A DNA stretch of 64,000 nt. It comes from Amazonocrinis nigriterrae CENA67 (GTDB lineage: Bacteria > Cyanobacteriota > Cyanobacteriia > Cyanobacteriales > Nostocaceae). Each line of letters begins with the position of its first letter. Position 1 is the stretch's first letter. The stretch covers positions 1 to 64,000 of the forward strand of contig NZ_JAECZC010000056.1 in assembly GCF_016056305.1 (NCBI RefSeq), in the 5' to 3' direction. Below the pieces are notes generated by a model, which was given only the letters and a program-made list of their open reading frames with translations, was not told the origin of the DNA and searched no databases. A program made the translations under genes and the position numbers. Below, in pieces: positions 165 through 51,600 of the stretch.

Positions 165-881
165 ATGGTACAGCAAATGCTCAGGCGGCTAGTTCAGTGG
201 CTCAAAAGGTTATTCCAACGCTTGTTTGGTGGGCAAAAGACTCCTGCCAATGTGGGCACAGATGTACCAAAACAACCAGCACCACCTCTAACCGACACGG
301 ATCTAGAATTTCTGTTCTCCGAACTTCTTGAAGGCGTGCATCAGGCGCGAGGAGAAGCTTGGGCGTCAAAGTGGCTACAAAACATTGAACATCGTGTGTC
401 CAAAGAACGTTGGTTAGAATGGTTACACCGATTTGGTGAAAGACTGCTAGCATCATCGACACCTAATAATGAATTAGCTGCTCGCTTAGTGCAATTGGGT
501 GAGTTGGGTATCGGCGAAATCGGAGATACTGCTTATGATATTGGGATGCAAGTGTTGACACGCAATCAAGGCGAACCAATATGGGAATATGATGGGCCAG
601 ATGCGGCTAGCACGAGTTTATCGCTGGAAGATAGCTACCCAGTAACAGAACAACTAGGTGAGGGAGAAAACATCCCAGGCGAGGGAGAAAACATTCCAGT
701 AGAGGGAGAATATCAAACTGTCACCCTAGATCAGTTATTTGTGATGTTGCAGCAGGATCAAAACTTGCGCCAACAGATAGCTCAAGAGCTGGCGCTTGAG
801 ACAGACGATCCTGAAGTTATCGTGCAAGAATTGATTAATCAATATAATGCATCCAATCAATCGACTACAGAGCAACCGTAA
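165..881 (+). CDS. Stand-alone N-terminal module of a TPR-CHAT protein
   Basis: A 238-residue protein of unknown function. It opens with a strongly basic amphipathic helix (residues 5-22, LRRLVQWLKRLFQRLF). A helical module at about 42-132 closely matches residues 39-130 of the 1250-residue TPR-CHAT protein encoded next (shared ELLEGVHQ, SxERW, QLGEL and YDIG). A second short motif at 186-213 (TVTLDQLF..LRQQIAQELA) matches residues 308-338 of that protein. Between them is an acidic linker with an internal repeat, GEGENIP (165-178). It has no TPRs and no CHAT domain, so it looks like a tandem duplicate reduced to the N-terminal part, or an adaptor for its neighbour. There is no signal peptide. 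The start could also be the internal Met5, which aligns with the neighbour's start. The gene is certainly real given the paralogy; function is unknown. Confidence 0.85.
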   Translation: MVQQMLRRLVQWLKRLFQRLFGGQKTPANVGTDVPKQPAPPLTDTDLEFLFSELLEGVHQARGEAWASKWLQNIEHRVSKERWLEWLHRFGERLLASSTPNNELAARLVQLGELGIGEIGDTAYDIGMQVLTRNQGEPIWEYDGPDAASTSLSLEDSYPVTEQLGEGENIPGEGENIPVEGEYQTVTLDQLFVMLQQDQNLRQQIAQELALETDDPEVIVQELINQYNASNQSTTEQP

Positions 882-1127
882 TAGTTGTTAATTGTCAGTT
901 GTCAGTTGTCAGTTGTTAATTGTCAGTTGTCAAAAGGCTAAAAGTTAACTTCTTCACCAATTCCCAATTCCCCATGCCCCAACAATAACAACTGACAAAG
1001 TTTTGTATATTTTTTATAACCATACGGCTCTAAACCCTGCTAAATCCAGTAGGTTTTAGGTAATTGCTAATATTTTTAAGACAACGCCGCTACAATCTAG
1101 GAGAAATAAAATCCAAGAGTATGGCAA
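882..1127. repeat. Tandem heptamer repeats between the paralogous pair
   Basis: Bases 883-937 are repeated GTTGTCA/GTCAGTT heptamers, the reverse complement of the repeat at the window's left end. They are followed by CCCAATTCCCC-type sequence. The rest is the AT-rich leader of the TPR-CHAT gene, with AGGAG at 1099-1103. The presence of a leader suggests the two paralogues may have separate promoters. Confidence 0.65.
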
Positions 1128-4100
1128 ATGCTCACGCAGCTAGTGCAGTGGCTTAAAACGTTTTCAAAACGCCCCGTTGGTAGTCAGCAGACTCGCGATC
1201 TCAGGACTGTAAAAGACCAGCAGGTGGTAGAACCACCTCAACTGAGTAATGCGGATCTGGAACTTTTGTTTAACCAGCTGTTGGAAGGTGTACATCAAGG
1301 ACGAGGACAACAGTGGGCAATCAACTACCTACAGCGGATGGAAGATCGGATTAGCCTTGAGCGCTGGATAGATTGGCTGCTGAGCTTTGGTGAAAAATTG
1401 CTTCTATCACCTGCACCGAACCATCAATTAGCAATGCAGATGGTTCAGTTAGGTGAACTTGATATTGGCAAAGTTGGAGAACTTTCCTATGACATTGGCA
1501 TACGGTTGTTAACACTGAACTCAAGTGAATGGTACGAAGATAACGAGGAGCCACAAACTGAAACTAGTACCACTGAAGATTTTGAAGCATCTGAAACTCT
1601 GTTCAATTCTCCAGGACAAGAGTTGATACGTAATTTAGGTGAGCTGTTATGGGAGTCTGACGATTTAGAAGTCGAACCCACAAGTGCAGTACCTGAAATT
1701 TCTACTCCTGAAGAAATTTCAGCCGAGAACATAAAAGAGGTGATTTGGGAATATCAAGCAGAACCAATTGAAACTACAGCTGTACCCGATTTTGTTGCTG
1801 ATGAAGATGCAACGGAGAACTCACAGGAATGGGTGTATGAAGCAGCGGCTGAAACTGCGACTTCCATACCTCTGCTACCTCCTGCTGAGGAAGATGTGAT
1901 CACCAACTTAAGCGAATTGTCTTTTGAGTATGAAGTGAGAAAAACTGAAATTACACCAGCAGAGCTTTTCGCTCATACCTTGGAGGCTGGTGTAGCAAAC
2001 TTCTCAGGAGACGGAACTTGGGATCAGTCTTTGGCGAATTTAGAGCCAAATGTAGCTTACACCTTAGATGAATTGTTGGTGAGGTTAGATCAAAGTGCCC
2101 ATTTAGTTCAGCAGCTTGCTTCTAATTTGGCAACTCAAACCAGCCATACTTCACTCAATCAATCGAATGCAGCTATAGAAGCACAAGCTTGGTTTTATCA
2201 AGGTTTGCAACAAGCTAAAACTGGAGATTTGTTAAGAGCGATCGCATCTTACGACCAAGCTATAGAATTAAATCCTGATGCGTATGAATACTGGTTTAAT
2301 CGCGGGTTGACGCTGTTTCATTTAAAACATTTTACCGAGGCGATCGCATCTTATAACCAAGCCATAGAACTCAAACCCGATTACTACAAAGCTTGGTACA
2401 ATCGGGGCGGCACTTTGGGCGAATTAGGACTATTTGACGAAGCGATCGCTTCTTTTGAACAAGCCATAGAAATCCAGCCAGATCACCCAGAAGCTTGGGC
2501 TGGTAAGGGTTTGGCACTGTTGAAGTTAGGGCGGCTGTGGGAAGCAGTTGCTAGTTATGACCAAGCTTTGCTACTACAACCCCAAGACCAGGAAAATTGG
2601 TATTTCCGAGGTGTGGCTTTGGCTGTCAGCGAGCAACATGAAGAAGCGATCGCTTCTTACGACCAAGCGCTGGCAATTCAACCAGACTACCACGAAGTTT
2701 GGATTGACCGGGGTGTTGTGCTGTTTAATTTAAAACGCTGGTCAGATGCGATCGCTTCCTGGGATAAAGCACTTGCAAGTCAGCCTGATTTCTACTTAGC
2801 TTGGTACAACCGGGGTATAGCTTTGGATAATTTGGGACGGCGAACTGAAGCGATCACCTCTTATCACAAAGCTATAACTATTAAACCTGATTTTCACTTA
2901 GCTTGGTACAATCAGGCAGTAGCACTGTTTTATTTAAAACAATTTACCCAGGCGATCGTCTCTTACGACAACGCTTTACAAATCAAACTTGATTATTGGG
3001 AAGCTTGGATTGGTCGAGGTACTGCTGCGGGTCATTTAGATAATGTTGACCTCTCCTTATCCACTGACATAGCGCTAACAAATCCTGCATTGCAGCAGGG
3101 AGGCTATGAAGGTAGACTGGCCAGCTACGAGGAAGGATTGAAACACGTCCGTTCGGATACCCATCCTGAAGGTTGGGGTAGGTTACATTTAGCGATCGCT
3201 AATGCCTATTATGACCGAGGTAGGAAACATTACACATCCTATGATGATTGGTATCAAGCCCTAAATGAATATAATCAGGCATTATCAACCCTGACAAGTG
3301 AAGATTTTCCAGAGTTACATCTGGAGGTTGTGCAATCTATGATTAAAGTCCTTCTGAGTTTGGGAGAAATAGCACAAGCACAAGAATTACAGGAATACAG
3401 CGCAGATATATTGCAACAATTACTCAGTGAACCAACTCGCTCTCATGAAAGTAAAAAACAGTTGGCTCTTAAATTTGCAGGCATTAGGCAATTAGCAGTT
3501 GATTTATATGTAGAATACGGTGATTTAGTAGAAGCTTGGGAAATGGCAGAACTGGGCAAAAACTCATGTTTAACCTGGCTGCTAGATGATTGGAAGGAAG
3601 AAATTTACTCACCTAGATATGACTCAGTTCAACAATTACTTAATCCGACTACAGCAATTATTTATTGGCATATTAGCCCAGTCGGTTTAAACACTTTTAT
3701 TATTAAAGACCAAGCGCCATCACCCATTCTGGTTTTTATACCCATACAAAATGTAGGAACTATAGGAACCACTACCTATTTCAATGAATTGCCTTTACCT
3801 GAAGCAGTGAGACGCTTGATTAAATTTGAAGATTGGCTAGAAGATTGGAATCAGACCCACGAAGGATATCGTAGTCAAGCTCCAGATTATCACAATAAAA
3901 GCAGCCATTCCTGGCGATTAGAGATGGAACAGAGGCTACTAAAATTAAAAGATATCCTCCAAATTTCTACAATTGAACAGGAACTAGAAGGAATTACCCA
4001 ATTAATTTTAATTCCTCACCGGGAATTGCACAGATTACCTCTTCATGCACTTTTTTCTCTTTCTTCCTACCAAGAATATTTGCCAAATCTAGAATCAAAT

Positions 4101-4880
4101 TTTGCGATTTCTTATCTACCTAGTGTCCAAATAGGTTTATCGTTAAAGAATACAAATACAGGGCAATTTTTTGAACAGAAGTTACTCATTGTTGAATATC
4201 CAAATAACACAAGTTCTTCTACATTTAACTTTGCCAATTTAGAATCTGAAGTTGTTAGCCAAATGTTCAATAGCCGCCAACGCATCCAGGGAGAAAAAGC
4301 TAATAAAAATATTGTGGAAAGTGCTTTATTTAATAATTATTATAATATCTTTCATTTTACAGGACATGTTACCAACAATTGCCGTGAGCCTCAAAAATCA
4401 GAATTAGCTTTAGCAGGAGAAGATAAGCTCACTTTAGAAAATATTTACCAAGGCAATTTAGCTACTTATAGCTTGGTTACTCTCTCAGCTTGTGAAACAA
4501 CTAGCAACCAGACTATTACTACTGAATATGTCGGTTTAGTCAATGGTTTTCTCTGGCGGGGAATTCCCCATGTAGTAAGTACTCTTTGGACTGTAGAATC
4601 TTCTGCTAGTGCTTTGGTGATCATCGAATTTTATCGAAGATTACAGCAAGAGAATTCGCCAACCACTGCTTTGGCAAAAGCAACGCTATGGCTGAAAGAA
4701 TTAACTGCTGGAGAATTGGCGAAATGGTATGAAGAGTTATTAAATAATGTGCAGATTGAAGATTTAAAAGTTAGGGCTTATTTAGCAACACATCTGTATA
4801 AAAATAGTAAAATGCCGTCAAATAAAAAGCTTTATAGTCATCCTTACTATTGGGCTGCGTTTACCATATCGGGTAAATAG
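1128..4880 (+). CDS. TPR-CHAT (caspase-like) protein
   Basis: A 1250-residue multidomain protein. Residues 1-130 hold the N-terminal helical module shared with the preceding gene. Residues 130-305 are an acidic, low-complexity linker. The second shared motif is at 308-338. About eight TPR repeats run from 352 to 632 (W-x-G or W-x-N-R-G starts and AIASYDQAL-type helices). A helical stretch follows, then a C-terminal CHAT domain whose presumed catalytic dyad is His1080 (HFTGH) and Cys1122 (LSACET). CHAT domains are caspase/separase-type cysteine peptidases, and TPR-CHAT proteins are common in filamentous cyanobacteria; in other bacteria they act as triggered proteases. The TPRs probably bind a partner that controls the peptidase. 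There is no signal peptide, so it is likely cytoplasmic. The substrate is unknown; the adjacent short paralogue is an obvious candidate partner or target. Confidence 0.93.
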   Translation: MLTQLVQWLKTFSKRPVGSQQTRDLRTVKDQQVVEPPQLSNADLELLFNQLLEGVHQGRGQQWAINYLQRMEDRISLERWIDWLLSFGEKLLLSPAPNHQLAMQMVQLGELDIGKVGELSYDIGIRLLTLNSSEWYEDNEEPQTETSTTEDFEASETLFNSPGQELIRNLGELLWESDDLEVEPTSAVPEISTPEEISAENIKEVIWEYQAEPIETTAVPDFVADEDATENSQEWVYEAAAETATSIPLLPPAEEDVITNLSELSFEYEVRKTEITPAELFAHTLEAGVANFSGDGTWDQSLANLEPNVAYTLDELLVRLDQSAHLVQQLASNLATQTSHTSLNQSNAAIEAQAWFYQGLQQAKTGDLLRAIASYDQAIELNPDAYEYWFNRGLTLFHLKHFTEAIASYNQAIELKPDYYKAWYNRGGTLGELGLFDEAIASFEQAIEIQPDHPEAWAGKGLALLKLGRLWEAVASYDQALLLQPQDQENWYFRGVALAVSEQHEEAIASYDQALAIQPDYHEVWIDRGVVLFNLKRWSDAIASWDKALASQPDFYLAWYNRGIALDNLGRRTEAITSYHKAITIKPDFHLAWYNQAVALFYLKQFTQAIVSYDNALQIKLDYWEAWIGRGTAAGHLDNVDLSLSTDIALTNPALQQGGYEGRLASYEEGLKHVRSDTHPEGWGRLHLAIANAYYDRGRKHYTSYDDWYQALNEYNQALSTLTSEDFPELHLEVVQSMIKVLLSLGEIAQAQELQEYSADILQQLLSEPTRSHESKKQLALKFAGIRQLAVDLYVEYGDLVEAWEMAELGKNSCLTWLLDDWKEEIYSPRYDSVQQLLNPTTAIIYWHISPVGLNTFIIKDQAPSPILVFIPIQNVGTIGTTTYFNELPLPEAVRRLIKFEDWLEDWNQTHEGYRSQAPDYHNKSSHSWRLEMEQRLLKLKDILQISTIEQELEGITQLILIPHRELHRLPLHALFSLSSYQEYLPNLESNFAISYLPSVQIGLSLKNTNTGQFFEQKLLIVEYPNNTSSSTFNFANLESEVVSQMFNSRQRIQGEKANKNIVESALFNNYYNIFHFTGHVTNNCREPQKSELALAGEDKLTLENIYQGNLATYSLVTLSACETTSNQTITTEYVGLVNGFLWRGIPHVVSTLWTVESSASALVIIEFYRRLQQENSPTTALAKATLWLKELTAGELAKWYEELLNNVQIEDLKVRAYLATHLYKNSKMPSNKKLYSHPYYWAAFTISGK

Positions 4881-5756: not shown

Positions 5757-7058
5757 ATGCATCCACCTATTACCCCATTAATTCCCCCAGAACATTTAGG
5801 ATTGAATGGAGAAGATAAGCAAAGTGGTTTAGCAAAACACAATCAATCCCTAACTTATGACTTATTTGCACCAGAAATAATTGCTAATCCCTATCCATTG
5901 TACAAACGTATCCGCGAAGAAGATCCAGTTCACTATGAAGCATCCTTGGGCTACTGGATTTTAACTCGGTATCAAGATGTAGAAGCTGCCTTGCGAGATG
6001 AACGGCTTAGTGCGAACCGACGGACTTTATTTATTCAGCAATTGGGCAATCTAGATGTCAGTTTGATTCAAAACTTTTTGCAACTGGCGGATAACTCGAT
6101 GATTGAAAAAGATCCACCTGATCACTCGCGGATGCGGAAACTAGCGAATCAAGGCTTTACAACCCGTGCTTTAGAAAGCTGGCGGGGCATTATTCAAAAA
6201 ACGACTGATACCTTATTAGATCAAGTGCAACATCAGGGTTATATGGATATTGTCTCTGACCTATCTGTACCCTTACCTAGCTTAATTATCGCCAAGATTT
6301 TTGGTGTACCAGAAAGCGATCGCGCTAACCTAATTCAGTGGGCAACGGATATCAGTTCTTTCTGGGGCGTTCCATCTGGTAACAATATAGAAGAATTGGC
6401 GCAAAAAGCTGATACTAGTGCTGCTCAATTCACGGCTTTCATTAACCAACTCGTAGCTGAACGCCGTCAAAAACCAGGAACAGATATGATTAGCTTGCTG
6501 ACAATGGCTTACACAGAGCAAAACCTGGATTTTGCAGAATTACCTTCCCTGTGCATTCTCATTCTCAATGCTGGCCGTTCAACTACTACTCATTTAATCC
6601 CCAATGGGGTATCAGCTTTGCTCAATCATCCCCAACAGCTACAGAAACTCAAGGATAATCCCGCCCTCATATCATCAGCTATTGAAGAAATCATCCGCTA
6701 TGACAGTTCGGTGTCCTTTGTATTTCGCATTGCCAAAGAAGATATAGAAATTGGTGGTCAAAAAATTCTCGCAGGTAGTGTGATTGCTTTGGGATTAGGA
6801 GCAGCTAATCACGACCCAGCAAAATTTACTCTAGCAGACAATTTTGATATTGAGCGATCGCCTAATGAACATTTAGGGTTTGGCCCTGGTATCCATTTCT
6901 GTCTAGGTGCAGTTTTGGCTCGGATGGAATTAAATATTTGTTTCTCTACTTTGTTGAAGCGGTTCCCAAATCTTCAGTTTGATTCGACAAGACCCGCTCT
7001 TCCCCGTCGTAATACCTTTGTTTTAAAGGGATTTGATGCTTTACATGTGCGGTTCTAG
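5757..7058 (+). CDS. Cytochrome P450
   Basis: A 433-residue soluble bacterial-type P450 with no membrane anchor. The heme-binding loop is FGPGIHFCLG with Cys382 as the axial thiolate ligand. The ExxR pair is Glu311-Arg314. The I-helix oxygen-activation motif is A272-G-R-S-T-T. It would hydroxylate or otherwise oxidise a small organic molecule using electrons from ferredoxin; the substrate cannot be read from sequence. It is a single gene with no redox partner or biosynthetic cluster nearby. Length is slightly above the usual 400-420 because of a Pro-rich N-terminal extension. The start is the first ATG after an upstream stop; no strong Shine-Dalgarno site is visible. Confidence 0.95.
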   Translation: MHPPITPLIPPEHLGLNGEDKQSGLAKHNQSLTYDLFAPEIIANPYPLYKRIREEDPVHYEASLGYWILTRYQDVEAALRDERLSANRRTLFIQQLGNLDVSLIQNFLQLADNSMIEKDPPDHSRMRKLANQGFTTRALESWRGIIQKTTDTLLDQVQHQGYMDIVSDLSVPLPSLIIAKIFGVPESDRANLIQWATDISSFWGVPSGNNIEELAQKADTSAAQFTAFINQLVAERRQKPGTDMISLLTMAYTEQNLDFAELPSLCILILNAGRSTTTHLIPNGVSALLNHPQQLQKLKDNPALISSAIEEIIRYDSSVSFVFRIAKEDIEIGGQKILAGSVIALGLGAANHDPAKFTLADNFDIERSPNEHLGFGPGIHFCLGAVLARMELNICFSTLLKRFPNLQFDSTRPALPRRNTFVLKGFDALHVRF

Positions 7059-7661: not shown

Positions 7662-8300
7662 TTACTTGTTAGGTTGGGGAGTTAACCGTAAATATGGCTT
7701 GACTTCCTCATAACCTTTGGGGAATTTTTCTTTGAGGACTTCTGGATCTTTGAGAGAGGGGACAATTACTACATCATCGCCATCTTTCCAATCAGCTGGT
7801 GTAGCTACGCTGTAATTATCAGTTAATTGCAGCGAATCAATGACGCGCAAAAGTTCATCAAAGTTGCGTCCAGTGCTGGGGGGATAGGTGAAAGTGAGAC
7901 GCAGTTTTTTGTTGGGGTCAATAACAAAAACAGATCGCACTGTTACAGCGGCGTTAGCATTGGGATGAATCATGTCGTAAAGGTCAGAAACTTGACGATC
8001 CGCATCTGCCAAAATTGGGTAGTTGAGACTGGTGTTTTGAGTTTCTTCGATATCTCCCACCCATCCATTGTGGGATTCTACACTATCAACGCTCAGAGCG
8101 ATCGCTTTAACGTTACGCTTGTCAAATTCTGGTTTGAGTTTGGCAACTGTACCTAATTCTGTTGTGCAAACAGGTGTAAAGTCAGCAGGATGAGAAAACA
8201 GCACTACCCAGCTGTCACCCGCCCATTCGTAAAAATCTATGTCGCCATGTGTGGAGGCTTGCTTAAAGTTTGGTACTGTATCACCAAGACGGAGAGCCAT
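7662..8300 (-). CDS. 1-Cys peroxiredoxin (Prx6 type)
   Basis: A 212-residue peroxidase that reduces hydrogen peroxide and organic hydroperoxides. The peroxidatic Cys45 lies in PADFTPVCTTE, the Prx6-type active site, and it is the only cysteine in the protein, so recycling needs an outside thiol. The C-terminal extension (about 150-212, ADWKDGDDVVIVPSL..) is characteristic of the 1-Cys subfamily. The start at 8300 (MALRLGD) is chosen over the longer frame to 8366 because family members begin here and AGGGA lies 8 bases upstream. It is monocistronic, next to the nested repeats. Confidence 0.95.
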   Translation of the reverse strand: MALRLGDTVPNFKQASTHGDIDFYEWAGDSWVVLFSHPADFTPVCTTELGTVAKLKPEFDKRNVKAIALSVDSVESHNGWVGDIEETQNTSLNYPILADADRQVSDLYDMIHPNANAAVTVRSVFVIDPNKKLRLTFTYPPSTGRNFDELLRVIDSLQLTDNYSVATPADWKDGDDVVIVPSLKDPEVLKEKFPKGYEEVKPYLRLTPQPNK

Positions 8301-8715
8301 GAGAGATTCCCTGTAGTAAATAAGGCATGTGTCTTCTATTTTGCCATGATGACATAAAACCCTCATTCACCAATCGGGCATTAGCAGTTTGAAACAAAAT
8401 TTTAAGTTGTCAGCATATTTATTAGGGAGTGGGGAGTAGGGAATAGGGAGTGGGGGATATTCTTTTTTAAGTTTGGTTGTGGAATTTTTCCCTGAATGGC
8501 TGGGTTGAAAAGCCTACTTTGACAAATATCGATGTAGATAGGTCATGCCTAATGCCTGACGATGAAATTTTTTATTAGGACTTTGTTATAAGTATTAACA
8601 AATTTTTAACTGCCTATGATGATATTCATATTTCTCATTATTGTCAAAGCAACTCTAGCACCCATTTGGCAAAAGCTGCTGTTGTATGCGTTGAATTAGG
8701 CTAAAATTAGCAGGG
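8301..8715. other. Non-coding gap
   Basis: It contains a G-rich tandem repeat (8425-8455, GGGAGTGGGGAGTAGGGAATAGGGAG type). The remainder is AT-rich with no clear gene, hairpin or promoter that I can support. Confidence 0.4.
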
Positions 8716-48672: not shown

Positions 48673-51600
48673 TTAAACTACCCCAGAATCAACTTTTGAG
48701 GGTTTGCGCCAATTGCGTTTTTTCAAAAATGATTGCCAAGATTCCATATAGGTGTAGAACACGGGTGTTAAATAAAGAGTGAGGAATTGTGAAAATAGTA
48801 ATCCTCCCACCACTGCTAAACCGAGGGGACGGCGTGTATCTGCACCAGCACCAAAACCAAGGGCAATTGGTAAAGTTCCCATCAATGCTGCCATTGTGGT
48901 CATCATAATCGGGCGAAACCTGACTAAGCAAGCTTCGTAGATAGCATCGTAGGGAGTTTTACCTTGTTGACGAGCAACAATTGCAAAGTCAACCATCATG
49001 ATGCCGTTTTTCTTCACAATCCCAATCAAGAGGATGATACCTACAAAGGCGTAGATATTCAGGTCAACATTAAATATTAATAGGGTTAGTAAGGCGCCGA
49101 AACCAGCGGAGGGCAAGCTAGAAAGGATAGTCAGGGGATGAATAAAGTTTTCGTAGAGAATCCCCAATACAATATAAATCACGAAAATAGCAACTAGTAG
49201 CAGCCATCCTAAACCCTGAATCGAAGACTGAAAGGCTTGGGCTGAACCTTGGAAGCCTGTACTGATGCTAGCTGGTAAGGTTTGTCTAGCAATTTGCTCA
49301 ATCTTAGCAGTGACATTACCTAATGAAACTCCTGGTTTTAAGTTAAAAGATATAGTGACAGAAGCTAGTTGTCCGGTGTGGTTAATAGTTAATGGCCCTA
49401 CACCTTTAGTGACAGTTGCTACAGCGTTGAGGGGTACTAGCTGTCCACTGGGGGCGCGAATTGAAAGCAAATCTAGGGCATTGGGATTTTCCTGATATTT
49501 GGGTTCGACACCCATAATTACCTGATATTGGCTATCAGAGGCGTAAATTGTGGAAACTTGGCGAGTACCATAAGCATTACTCAGGGCAGTTTCGATTTGA
49601 TTGGCAGTTAAACTCAATGATGATGCTAAATCACGGTTGATTTTGACTTGAAGTTGGGGATTTTTGATTTGCAAGTCACTATTAACATCTTGCAAATCTT
49701 CTAGTCCGCGGAGTTGCTTTTCTAAAGTGGGGGCGTATTGATAAAGCTCTTGGACGTTGGGACTTTGAAGTGTAAATTGATATTGGGCTTTGCTTTGTTG
49801 CCCACCGATGTTAATAGCTGGGGGATTTTGTAAGAAAACTTTCATCCCTGGAATGCGTGAGAGTTTCGGACGCAGTTCTTGTACAATCTCATCTGCACCT
49901 AGAGGGCGCTCATGACGAGGTTTGAGTTTGAGAAAAATTCGTCCAGTGTTGGCGGAAGCATTTGGCCCCCCAGCACCCACACTAGAGTTGACAGCTGCAA
50001 TATTGGGATCTTTATATGCGATCGCTGCCACTGCTTGTTGATGTTTTACCATTTCATCAAAGGAGATATCCTCTGCTGCTTGGGTATTGGCGGTAATTTG
50101 TCCCACGTCTGCACTAGGAATAAACCCCTTGGGAACAACCATGAATAAATATACTGTCGCTACCAAAATCGCACCAGAAATTACCATCGTTGTGCGATGA
50201 TATTTGAGTGACAGTTTTAAACTCCAATCGTAAGCACCAAGTAATTTATCAAAGAAGCTTTCTGAAAGGTTGTAGAGGCGAGTTTTCCAATCTTTCTTAC
50301 CCTCGCTATCTTCCTGTCCATGATGGGGTGGACGCAAGAAGCGCGAACACAGCATTGGTGTCAAGCTGAGAGAAATCATCCCAGAGATGAGAATGGCAAC
50401 GCTGATTGTAATGGCAAATTCTCGAAACAGTCGTCCCAAAATGCCACTCATGAACAGTACAGGAATGAAGACTGCTACTAGAGAAATGGTCATGGATAAA
50501 ATGGTGAAACCAATTTCTCTGGAAGCATTCAAAGCTGCTTCAAACCGACTTTCCCCCATTTCCATGTGACGGACGATGTTCTCTAACATCACTACAGCAT
50601 CATCCACCACGAAACCCACGGAAAGAGTCAACGCCATTAAAGATAGGTTATCTAAAGAAAAACCCAGCAATAGCATCACCCCAAAAGTCGCCACCAGCGA
50701 TAGAGGTACTGCCAAACTGGGAATAACTGTAGCCGAGAGGTTGCGGAGAAACAAAAAGATCACCAGTACTACCAAAGCAATAGTCAGCAACAAAGTAAAC
50801 TGGACATCATCAACCGATTCTCGAATCACCTGCGATCGGTCATACATAATATCCATGTTGACAGCCGCCGGGATTTGTTCGCGGAAAGAAGGTAAGATTT
50901 TCTTGATAGCATCCACCACGGCAACAGTATTAGTTCCGGGTTGCTTCTGAATTGCCAACACCATGGCCCTGACACCAGAATTTTTCTTTGGGGATTTCTC
51001 TCCCTTGTCAGGAAAAAACCAACTCGCTACTTTGTCATTCTCTACACTATCTAATACCTGACCTAGTTCGCCTAAGATTACTGGCGCACCATCTTGGTAA
51101 GTCACAACTAAAGAACGATAGCTGGCTGCATCATTTAGTTGTCCATTGGCTTGGATGGTAAAGTTCTGCTTTGTGCCGTAAAGTGTGCCAGTGGGCAGGT
51201 TAACATTTCCTTGGGAAATGGCTGTGGCTACTTCGTCCACACCGATACCTTTAGCACTCAGTGATTCCGGGTCTAATTGAATCCGTACCGCGTACTTTTG
51301 GGAACCGTACACTTGCACCTGAGCCACCCCATCCACCATTGACAAGCGTTGTGCTAAAAGGGTTTCGGCGTATTTATCTACAGTTGATAGAGGTAAAATT
51401 TCTGAGTTGAGGGAGATATAGAGAATTGGCTGGTCTGCCGGATTCACCTTGCGATAGGATGGAGGGCTGGGCATATTGGTAGGTAACTGCTTTGCAGCTT
51501 TGGATATAGCTGCCTGCACATCCTGTGCTGCCCCATCTATCTGCCGACTCAAGTCAAATTGTAAGGTGATTTGTGAGCTACCCAAGGAGCTAGTGGAGTT

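Follow-up and report, generated by a model that had tools for sequence, protein, structure and literature searches.

Why should a gene for a large TPR-CHAT protein be preceded by a second gene that encodes a stand-alone copy of its N-terminal module? The question is raised by two neighbouring genes of the cyanobacterium Amazonocrinis nigriterrae CENA67. They lie in a stretch of 64,000 nucleotides, here called the window, that begins at the start of contig NZ_JAECZC010000056.1; the genome is 8.26 Mb in length and a genome search returned 30 CHAT matches. An initial annotation of the sequence had taken the large protein for a protease and suggested that its small neighbour could be a substrate, an inhibitor or an effector released by cleavage. 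Literature searches on TPR-CHAT proteins in cyanobacteria turned up mainly studies of HetF, and the pair was not described in what they returned.

Architecture of the gene pair

Both reading frames are intact, and the following features of the window are used in the analysis.

138–150, + strand: promoter-like element GCTACAATCTTAG, preceding the small gene (CTACAAT in 50 of 64 small genes)
165–881, + strand: small protein, 238 amino acids, with amphipathic helix, helical module, IWEYDGPD, linker and C-terminal helix pair (reading frame, relatives, AlphaFold model)
171–227, + strand: N-terminal cationic amphipathic helix of the small protein, residues 3–21 (AlphaFold model at modest pLDDT; hydrophobic moment)
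288–566, + strand: five-helix module of the small protein, residues 42–134 (pLDDT above 90 over most of its length; alignment)
579–602, + strand: short motif IWEYDGPD of the small protein, residues 139–146 (61 of the 62 small proteins of Nostocaceae type have it)
657–698, + strand: tandem repeat GEGENIPGEGENIP of the small protein, the GEGENIP linker (absent in 64 relatives)
726–869, + strand: TLDxL C-terminal helices of the small protein, residues 188–235 (AlphaFold model; match to residues 312–349 of the TPR-CHAT protein)
1089–1100, + strand: promoter-like element GCTACAATCTAG, preceding the TPR-CHAT gene (CTACAAT in 59 of 60 TPR-CHAT genes)
1128–4880, + strand: TPR-CHAT protein, 1,250 amino acids (reading frame, family matches, structure model)
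1239–1520, + strand: helical module of the TPR-CHAT protein, residues 38–131 (BLASTP, alignment)
1650–1931, + strand: four WEY-type motifs arrayed along a disordered linker, at residues 175, 207, 235 and 266 (motif counts; pLDDT about 25)
2061–2162, + strand: TLDxL helix of the TPR-CHAT protein, residues 312–345 (BLASTP, model)
2181–3047, + strand: TPR superhelix, residues 352–640, the most constrained domain (family match, model, conservation, w)
3945–4877, + strand: CHAT domain with separase/Csx29 fold, residues 940–1250 (family match, structure comparison)
4365–4367, + strand: His1080, catalytic His, present in the window copy (lost in 28 of 62 orthologues)
4491–4493, + strand: Cys1122, catalytic Cys, present in the window copy (lost in 4 of 62 orthologues)

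The common module and TLDxL motif that the initial annotation had reported were recovered by BLASTP. The module aligns between the two proteins with 46% identity over 171 amino acids (E = 6e-41), and for the TLDxL motif a further 44 amino acids align at 41% identity, starting at residue 187 of the small protein and residue 312 of the TPR-CHAT protein. In a search of the whole genome, the module was limited to these two genes. The large protein continues with TPR repeats (residues ~350–640) and a CHAT domain (PF12770, 151 bits; gathering cut-off, 24). The small protein has neither, as had been claimed, and gave zero matches over cut-off in Pfam, NCBIfam and PADLOC. As PADLOC returned a weak match alone for the TPR-CHAT protein (BovA, E = 0.00095) and nothing for the small one, the reading as a defence system was set aside.

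Both proteins had also been said to start with a cationic amphipathic helix. Among the small and TPR-CHAT proteins of relatives this holds, with a hydrophobic moment around 3 s.d. above shuffled sequences and a net charge of about +4; of the window copies, the small protein has a strong moment (0.78) and the TPR-CHAT protein a weaker one (0.44). Comparison of the module with solved structures produced no convincing match (best Foldseek E = 0.55; best VIA-align Z = 5.3), a result that excludes no fold.

Further downstream in the window, the next long reading frame (5757–7058) resembles a cytochrome P450 by eye and is followed by a peroxiredoxin-like frame on the opposite strand (7662–8366). Elsewhere in the same genome, two equal-scoring CHAT genes (L001 and L002; G000:C6:43914-44897 and 49634-50617) lie inverted about 5 kb apart and are likely to represent an inverted duplication.

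Conservation and synteny

Conservation of the small gene beside TPR-CHAT genes had been set beforehand as a refutation test of the pairing. With one partial-gene locus left out, 63 loci with the small gene were named; one is at a contig edge, leaving 62 assessable Nostocaceae-type loci, two of which (L103 and L104) are from the same assembly. The TPR-CHAT gene lies next to the small gene and on the same strand in 59 of them. Two of the three exceptions are Desmonostoc vinosum and Cyanocohniella. For these, loss of the TPR-CHAT gene was ruled out by finding it elsewhere in the genome, and another of the searched genomes (G350) also keeps both genes unlinked, making three unlinked genomes in total. 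In two small genomes the small gene has outlasted its neighbour: G142 (3.8 Mb) has a small gene without a TPR-CHAT orthologue, and Richelia intracellularis HH01 has an intact small gene with a broken TPR-CHAT remnant downstream. In G361 the TPR-CHAT gene is at a contig start, and the small gene was not found in the 998 bp between it and the contig start.

Compared with three relatives, dN/dS is ~0.17–0.2 for the small gene and ~0.19–0.24 for the TPR-CHAT gene. The pair is intact in relatives and under purifying selection, which rules out that the small gene is a decaying fragment. By conservation and w, the most constrained part of the TPR-CHAT protein is its TPR region. These observations support a genuine, conserved pair of proteins that look functionally linked, and the pairing withstands the refutation test set for it.

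Upstream of the small gene, and divergently transcribed, dnaX is present in 59 of 64 loci; we judge this to be conserved synteny and not a functional partnership, because dnaX is a housekeeping gene. In the TPR-CHAT gene, the stretch that encodes the module (window 1128–1520) has a lower synonymous divergence than the whole gene (0.18 versus 0.29, 0.29 versus 0.78 and 0.44 versus 0.84), which may reflect gene conversion with the adjoining small gene or codon constraint.

A module family and its duplication

Searches with the small protein found relatives in 334 of 389 Cyanobacteriales genomes and, in a phylum-wide sample, in three genomes only outside this order. The module family is widespread in Cyanobacteriales, and neither Pfam nor NCBIfam lists it. 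The relative found in most of the other families is a module-TPR protein of ~400 amino acids, which even two genomes with sizes of 1.44 and 1.49 Mb encode; stand-alone modules also occur in families without an adjoining CHAT gene. The dnaX-flanked position itself varies between families: it holds a module-TPR gene without CHAT in L107 and L113, one fused module-TPR-CHAT gene in L108 and a stand-alone small gene in L117. Variants at other loci include a second, more distant module-TPR-CHAT paralogue that lacks a small partner and is seen in some of the Nostocaceae (G330 and G363; L133:6206-9928 and L142:6487-9798), genes with tandem or neighbouring module copies in other Cyanobacteriales families (L125 and L144), and a module that leads into a long, proline-rich tail in place of TPRs (L132:4413-5711).

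In a tree of modules, the small and TPR-CHAT copies of Nostocaceae and relatives form sister clades (100/98). This topology means that one tandem duplication took place at the base of the Nostocaceae-type group, before Nostocaceae and their relatives spread. The promoter-like element GCTACAATCT(T)AG precedes both copies, ~25–40 nucleotides from the start, and is retained by two of the three unlinked TPR-CHAT genes.

The two genes could be tandem paralogues with separate jobs, adjacent merely by inheritance. Their separate promoter-like elements and intergenic gaps of 140–803 bp (median, 225 bp) fit such an account, as does the synteny with dnaX, by which the locus would be stable in any case. 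However, both genes were retained in the three genomes in which they are unlinked, and the two proteins have not only the N-terminus but also a WEY motif in common. We consider an absence of any functional link unlikely.

A short motif common to both proteins

The motif IWEY[D/E]GPD follows the module, once each, in all but one of the Nostocaceae-type small proteins, and also in many of the ~400-amino-acid relatives. Its specificity is high: in six genomes, the coding pattern for IWEYDGPD occurred once per genome and always in the small gene or its orthologue. WEY variants, counted with a fixed pattern, occur one to four times in the TPR-CHAT linker in 61 of 62 orthologues, with a mean of 2.31 compared to 0.05 in shuffled sequences; a looser pattern finds more copies in some linkers, up to seven. 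Part of this repetition is recent tandem duplication within the linker.

Tryptophan-acidic motifs of kinesin light chain offer a precedent for reading WEY as a ligand of TPRs. An intramolecular ligand of this kind is neither shown nor excluded by the monomer model of the TPR-CHAT protein, in which the linker stays disordered and gives no hint of a motif ligand. The linker of the small protein is likewise disordered in its model.

Repeated decay of the catalytic dyad

Cys1122 had been put forward as the catalytic residue, and it aligns with the Cys of the type III-E TPR-CHAT protease, as His1080 does with its His; the dyad of that enzyme is H585/C627 (PMC9729208), and the two residues are 42 positions apart in both proteins. 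The dyad is kept in the window copy and its nearest relatives. Across the 62 TPR-CHAT orthologues, both residues are intact in 31 and at least one is lost in the other 31 (HC 31, YC 9, RC 8, QC 6, HS 3, NC 2, RS 1, SC 1 and AC 1). With the local motif at the His position (HFTGR or HFTGY), the alignment is hardly in doubt. His1080 ranks 282nd of 310 positions in conservation within the CHAT domain. As a loose control, the His motif was present in 8 of 8 other CHAT proteins read in the same genome, these being the best-scoring ones. The unlinked TPR-CHAT copies follow the same trend: two have Arg (L157) or Gln (L159) at the His position, and a search of the third (L158) did not find the HF.G motif.

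On a quick tree of 65 proteins, the dyad switches at least 14 times between its intact and broken states, a count that cannot separate loss from regain. CHAT-domain w is 0.09–0.32 in dyad-lost pairs and 0.07–0.41 in dyad-kept pairs; dyad-lost domains are therefore maintained under purifying selection. Because 58 of 62 orthologues retain the Cys, some use of its pocket is possible, for example in ligand binding or a non-canonical mechanism. Proteolysis is possible in the dyad-intact half of the orthologues, A. nigriterrae included.

The small protein might instead be a module-only regulator that enters mixed oligomers together with the TPR-CHAT protein, setting protease activity, comparable to the CARD-only proteins that act on caspase-1. 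The N-terminal module common to both proteins would suit this arrangement, as would the intact half of the dyads and the presence of the small gene, even when unlinked, in nearly all genomes with a TPR-CHAT gene. However, the pair was kept through the repeated changes of dyad state, and the small gene was retained without a CHAT partner. We consider regulated proteolysis unlikely.

The proposal that CHAT cuts the small protein and so releases the amphipathic helix, in the manner of Csx29 acting on Csx30, can point to gene adjacency, to that helix and to the intact dyad of the window copy, but it is very unlikely and not supported, because there is no conserved site (the GEGENIP linker, in which cleavage had been placed, is a tandem repeat private to this genome and absent from all 64 relatives checked, and cleavage there was rejected for this reason), no conserved catalytic residue (the domain is kept where the dyad is lost, and the His is among its least conserved positions) and the small gene persists alone, with a CHAT remnant or without CHAT, as do stand-alone modules elsewhere without a CHAT neighbour.

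Comparison with known systems

Csx29, the type III-E CRISPR TPR-CHAT protease whose substrate is Csx30, resembles the large protein in joining TPRs to a separase-fold CHAT domain, and our model of residues 51–1250 matches it over 482 residues (7y9x_B; Z = 30.4, rmsd 11.3). However, the protein scores 43.9 bits against NCBIfam NF041237, for which the cut-off is 300, the recurrent syntenic neighbour here is dnaX and the dyad is often lost. The protease domain of separase is also matched (5fby_A; Z = 25.5, rmsd 3.1, 324 residues); unlike in separase, the catalytic His is not conserved among the orthologues and no cohesin-like partner is known here.

HetF of Anabaena is a membrane-bound TPR/CHAT divisome protein with CHAT at residues 1–555 and a transmembrane segment (PMC8406250). 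It is likewise cyanobacterial, combines CHAT with TPRs and is tied to the membrane, as the pair described here may be, whereas the order here is module, TPR and then CHAT (residues 940–1250), with an amphipathic N-terminal helix. Binding to FtsI is a further mark of HetF. Cyanobacterial pseudo-orthocaspases are caspase-fold proteins kept despite loss of their HC dyad (PMC6426788), as are many TPR-CHAT orthologues. They belong to another family (p20 domain), in which Tyr and Ser replace the His and Cys; the substitutions here vary (Y, R, Q, N, S and A) and recur within one orthologous group.

A proposed scaffold with an active site that is often lost

Homology, duplication, co-retention, purifying selection and repeated dyad loss are shown by the data above. 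We propose, with a probability of roughly 45%, that the two genes are a tandem-duplicated pair from a family of membrane-peripheral adaptors, in which the TPR-CHAT protein acts mainly as a TPR scaffold and is often a pseudoprotease. The small protein would be a stand-alone member of this cyanobacterial family, whose layout consists of an amphipathic helix, the five-helix module, a WEY linear motif and a C-terminal helix pair, with TPRs coming after these in most families. The gene was duplicated in tandem, by this account along with its promoter, in the common ancestor of Nostocaceae and their relatives; one copy is short and the other carries the TPR superhelix and the separase-fold CHAT domain. 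Both copies may sit on the same membrane through their amphipathic helices, and the WEY motif, present once in the small and several times in the large protein, may bind the same partner. The CHAT domain would then serve as a binding or structural domain, and proteolysis would be no more than an addition in particular lineages, which A. nigriterrae may have, as it keeps His1080 and Cys1122. Of the two, the small protein is probably basic and the TPR-CHAT protein dependent on it; this dependence rests on few exceptions, and G361, with a TPR-CHAT gene and no small gene found in its short upstream sequence, counts against it.

Implications

New here, and missing from the initial annotation, are the IWEY[D/E]GPD motif and its linker array, the duplicated promoter-like element and a widespread, unlisted module family. 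More tentatively, a core cyanobacterial membrane-scaffold family, marked by a novel helical module and by WEY as a docking motif, may have taken up a separase-fold protease as a non-catalytic scaffold, losing its active site many times while the domain and the small partner were kept. The usual reading of a CHAT domain is that of a protease, often one in cell death or defence, and this pair warns against it. Repeated decay of the site, with the domain under selection, provides a natural series for the transition from protease to scaffold. The module family spans Cyanobacteriales, even in genomes of 1.4–1.5 Mb, without a name or known role, and its single, highly specific linear motif should make it easier to fish out the partner.
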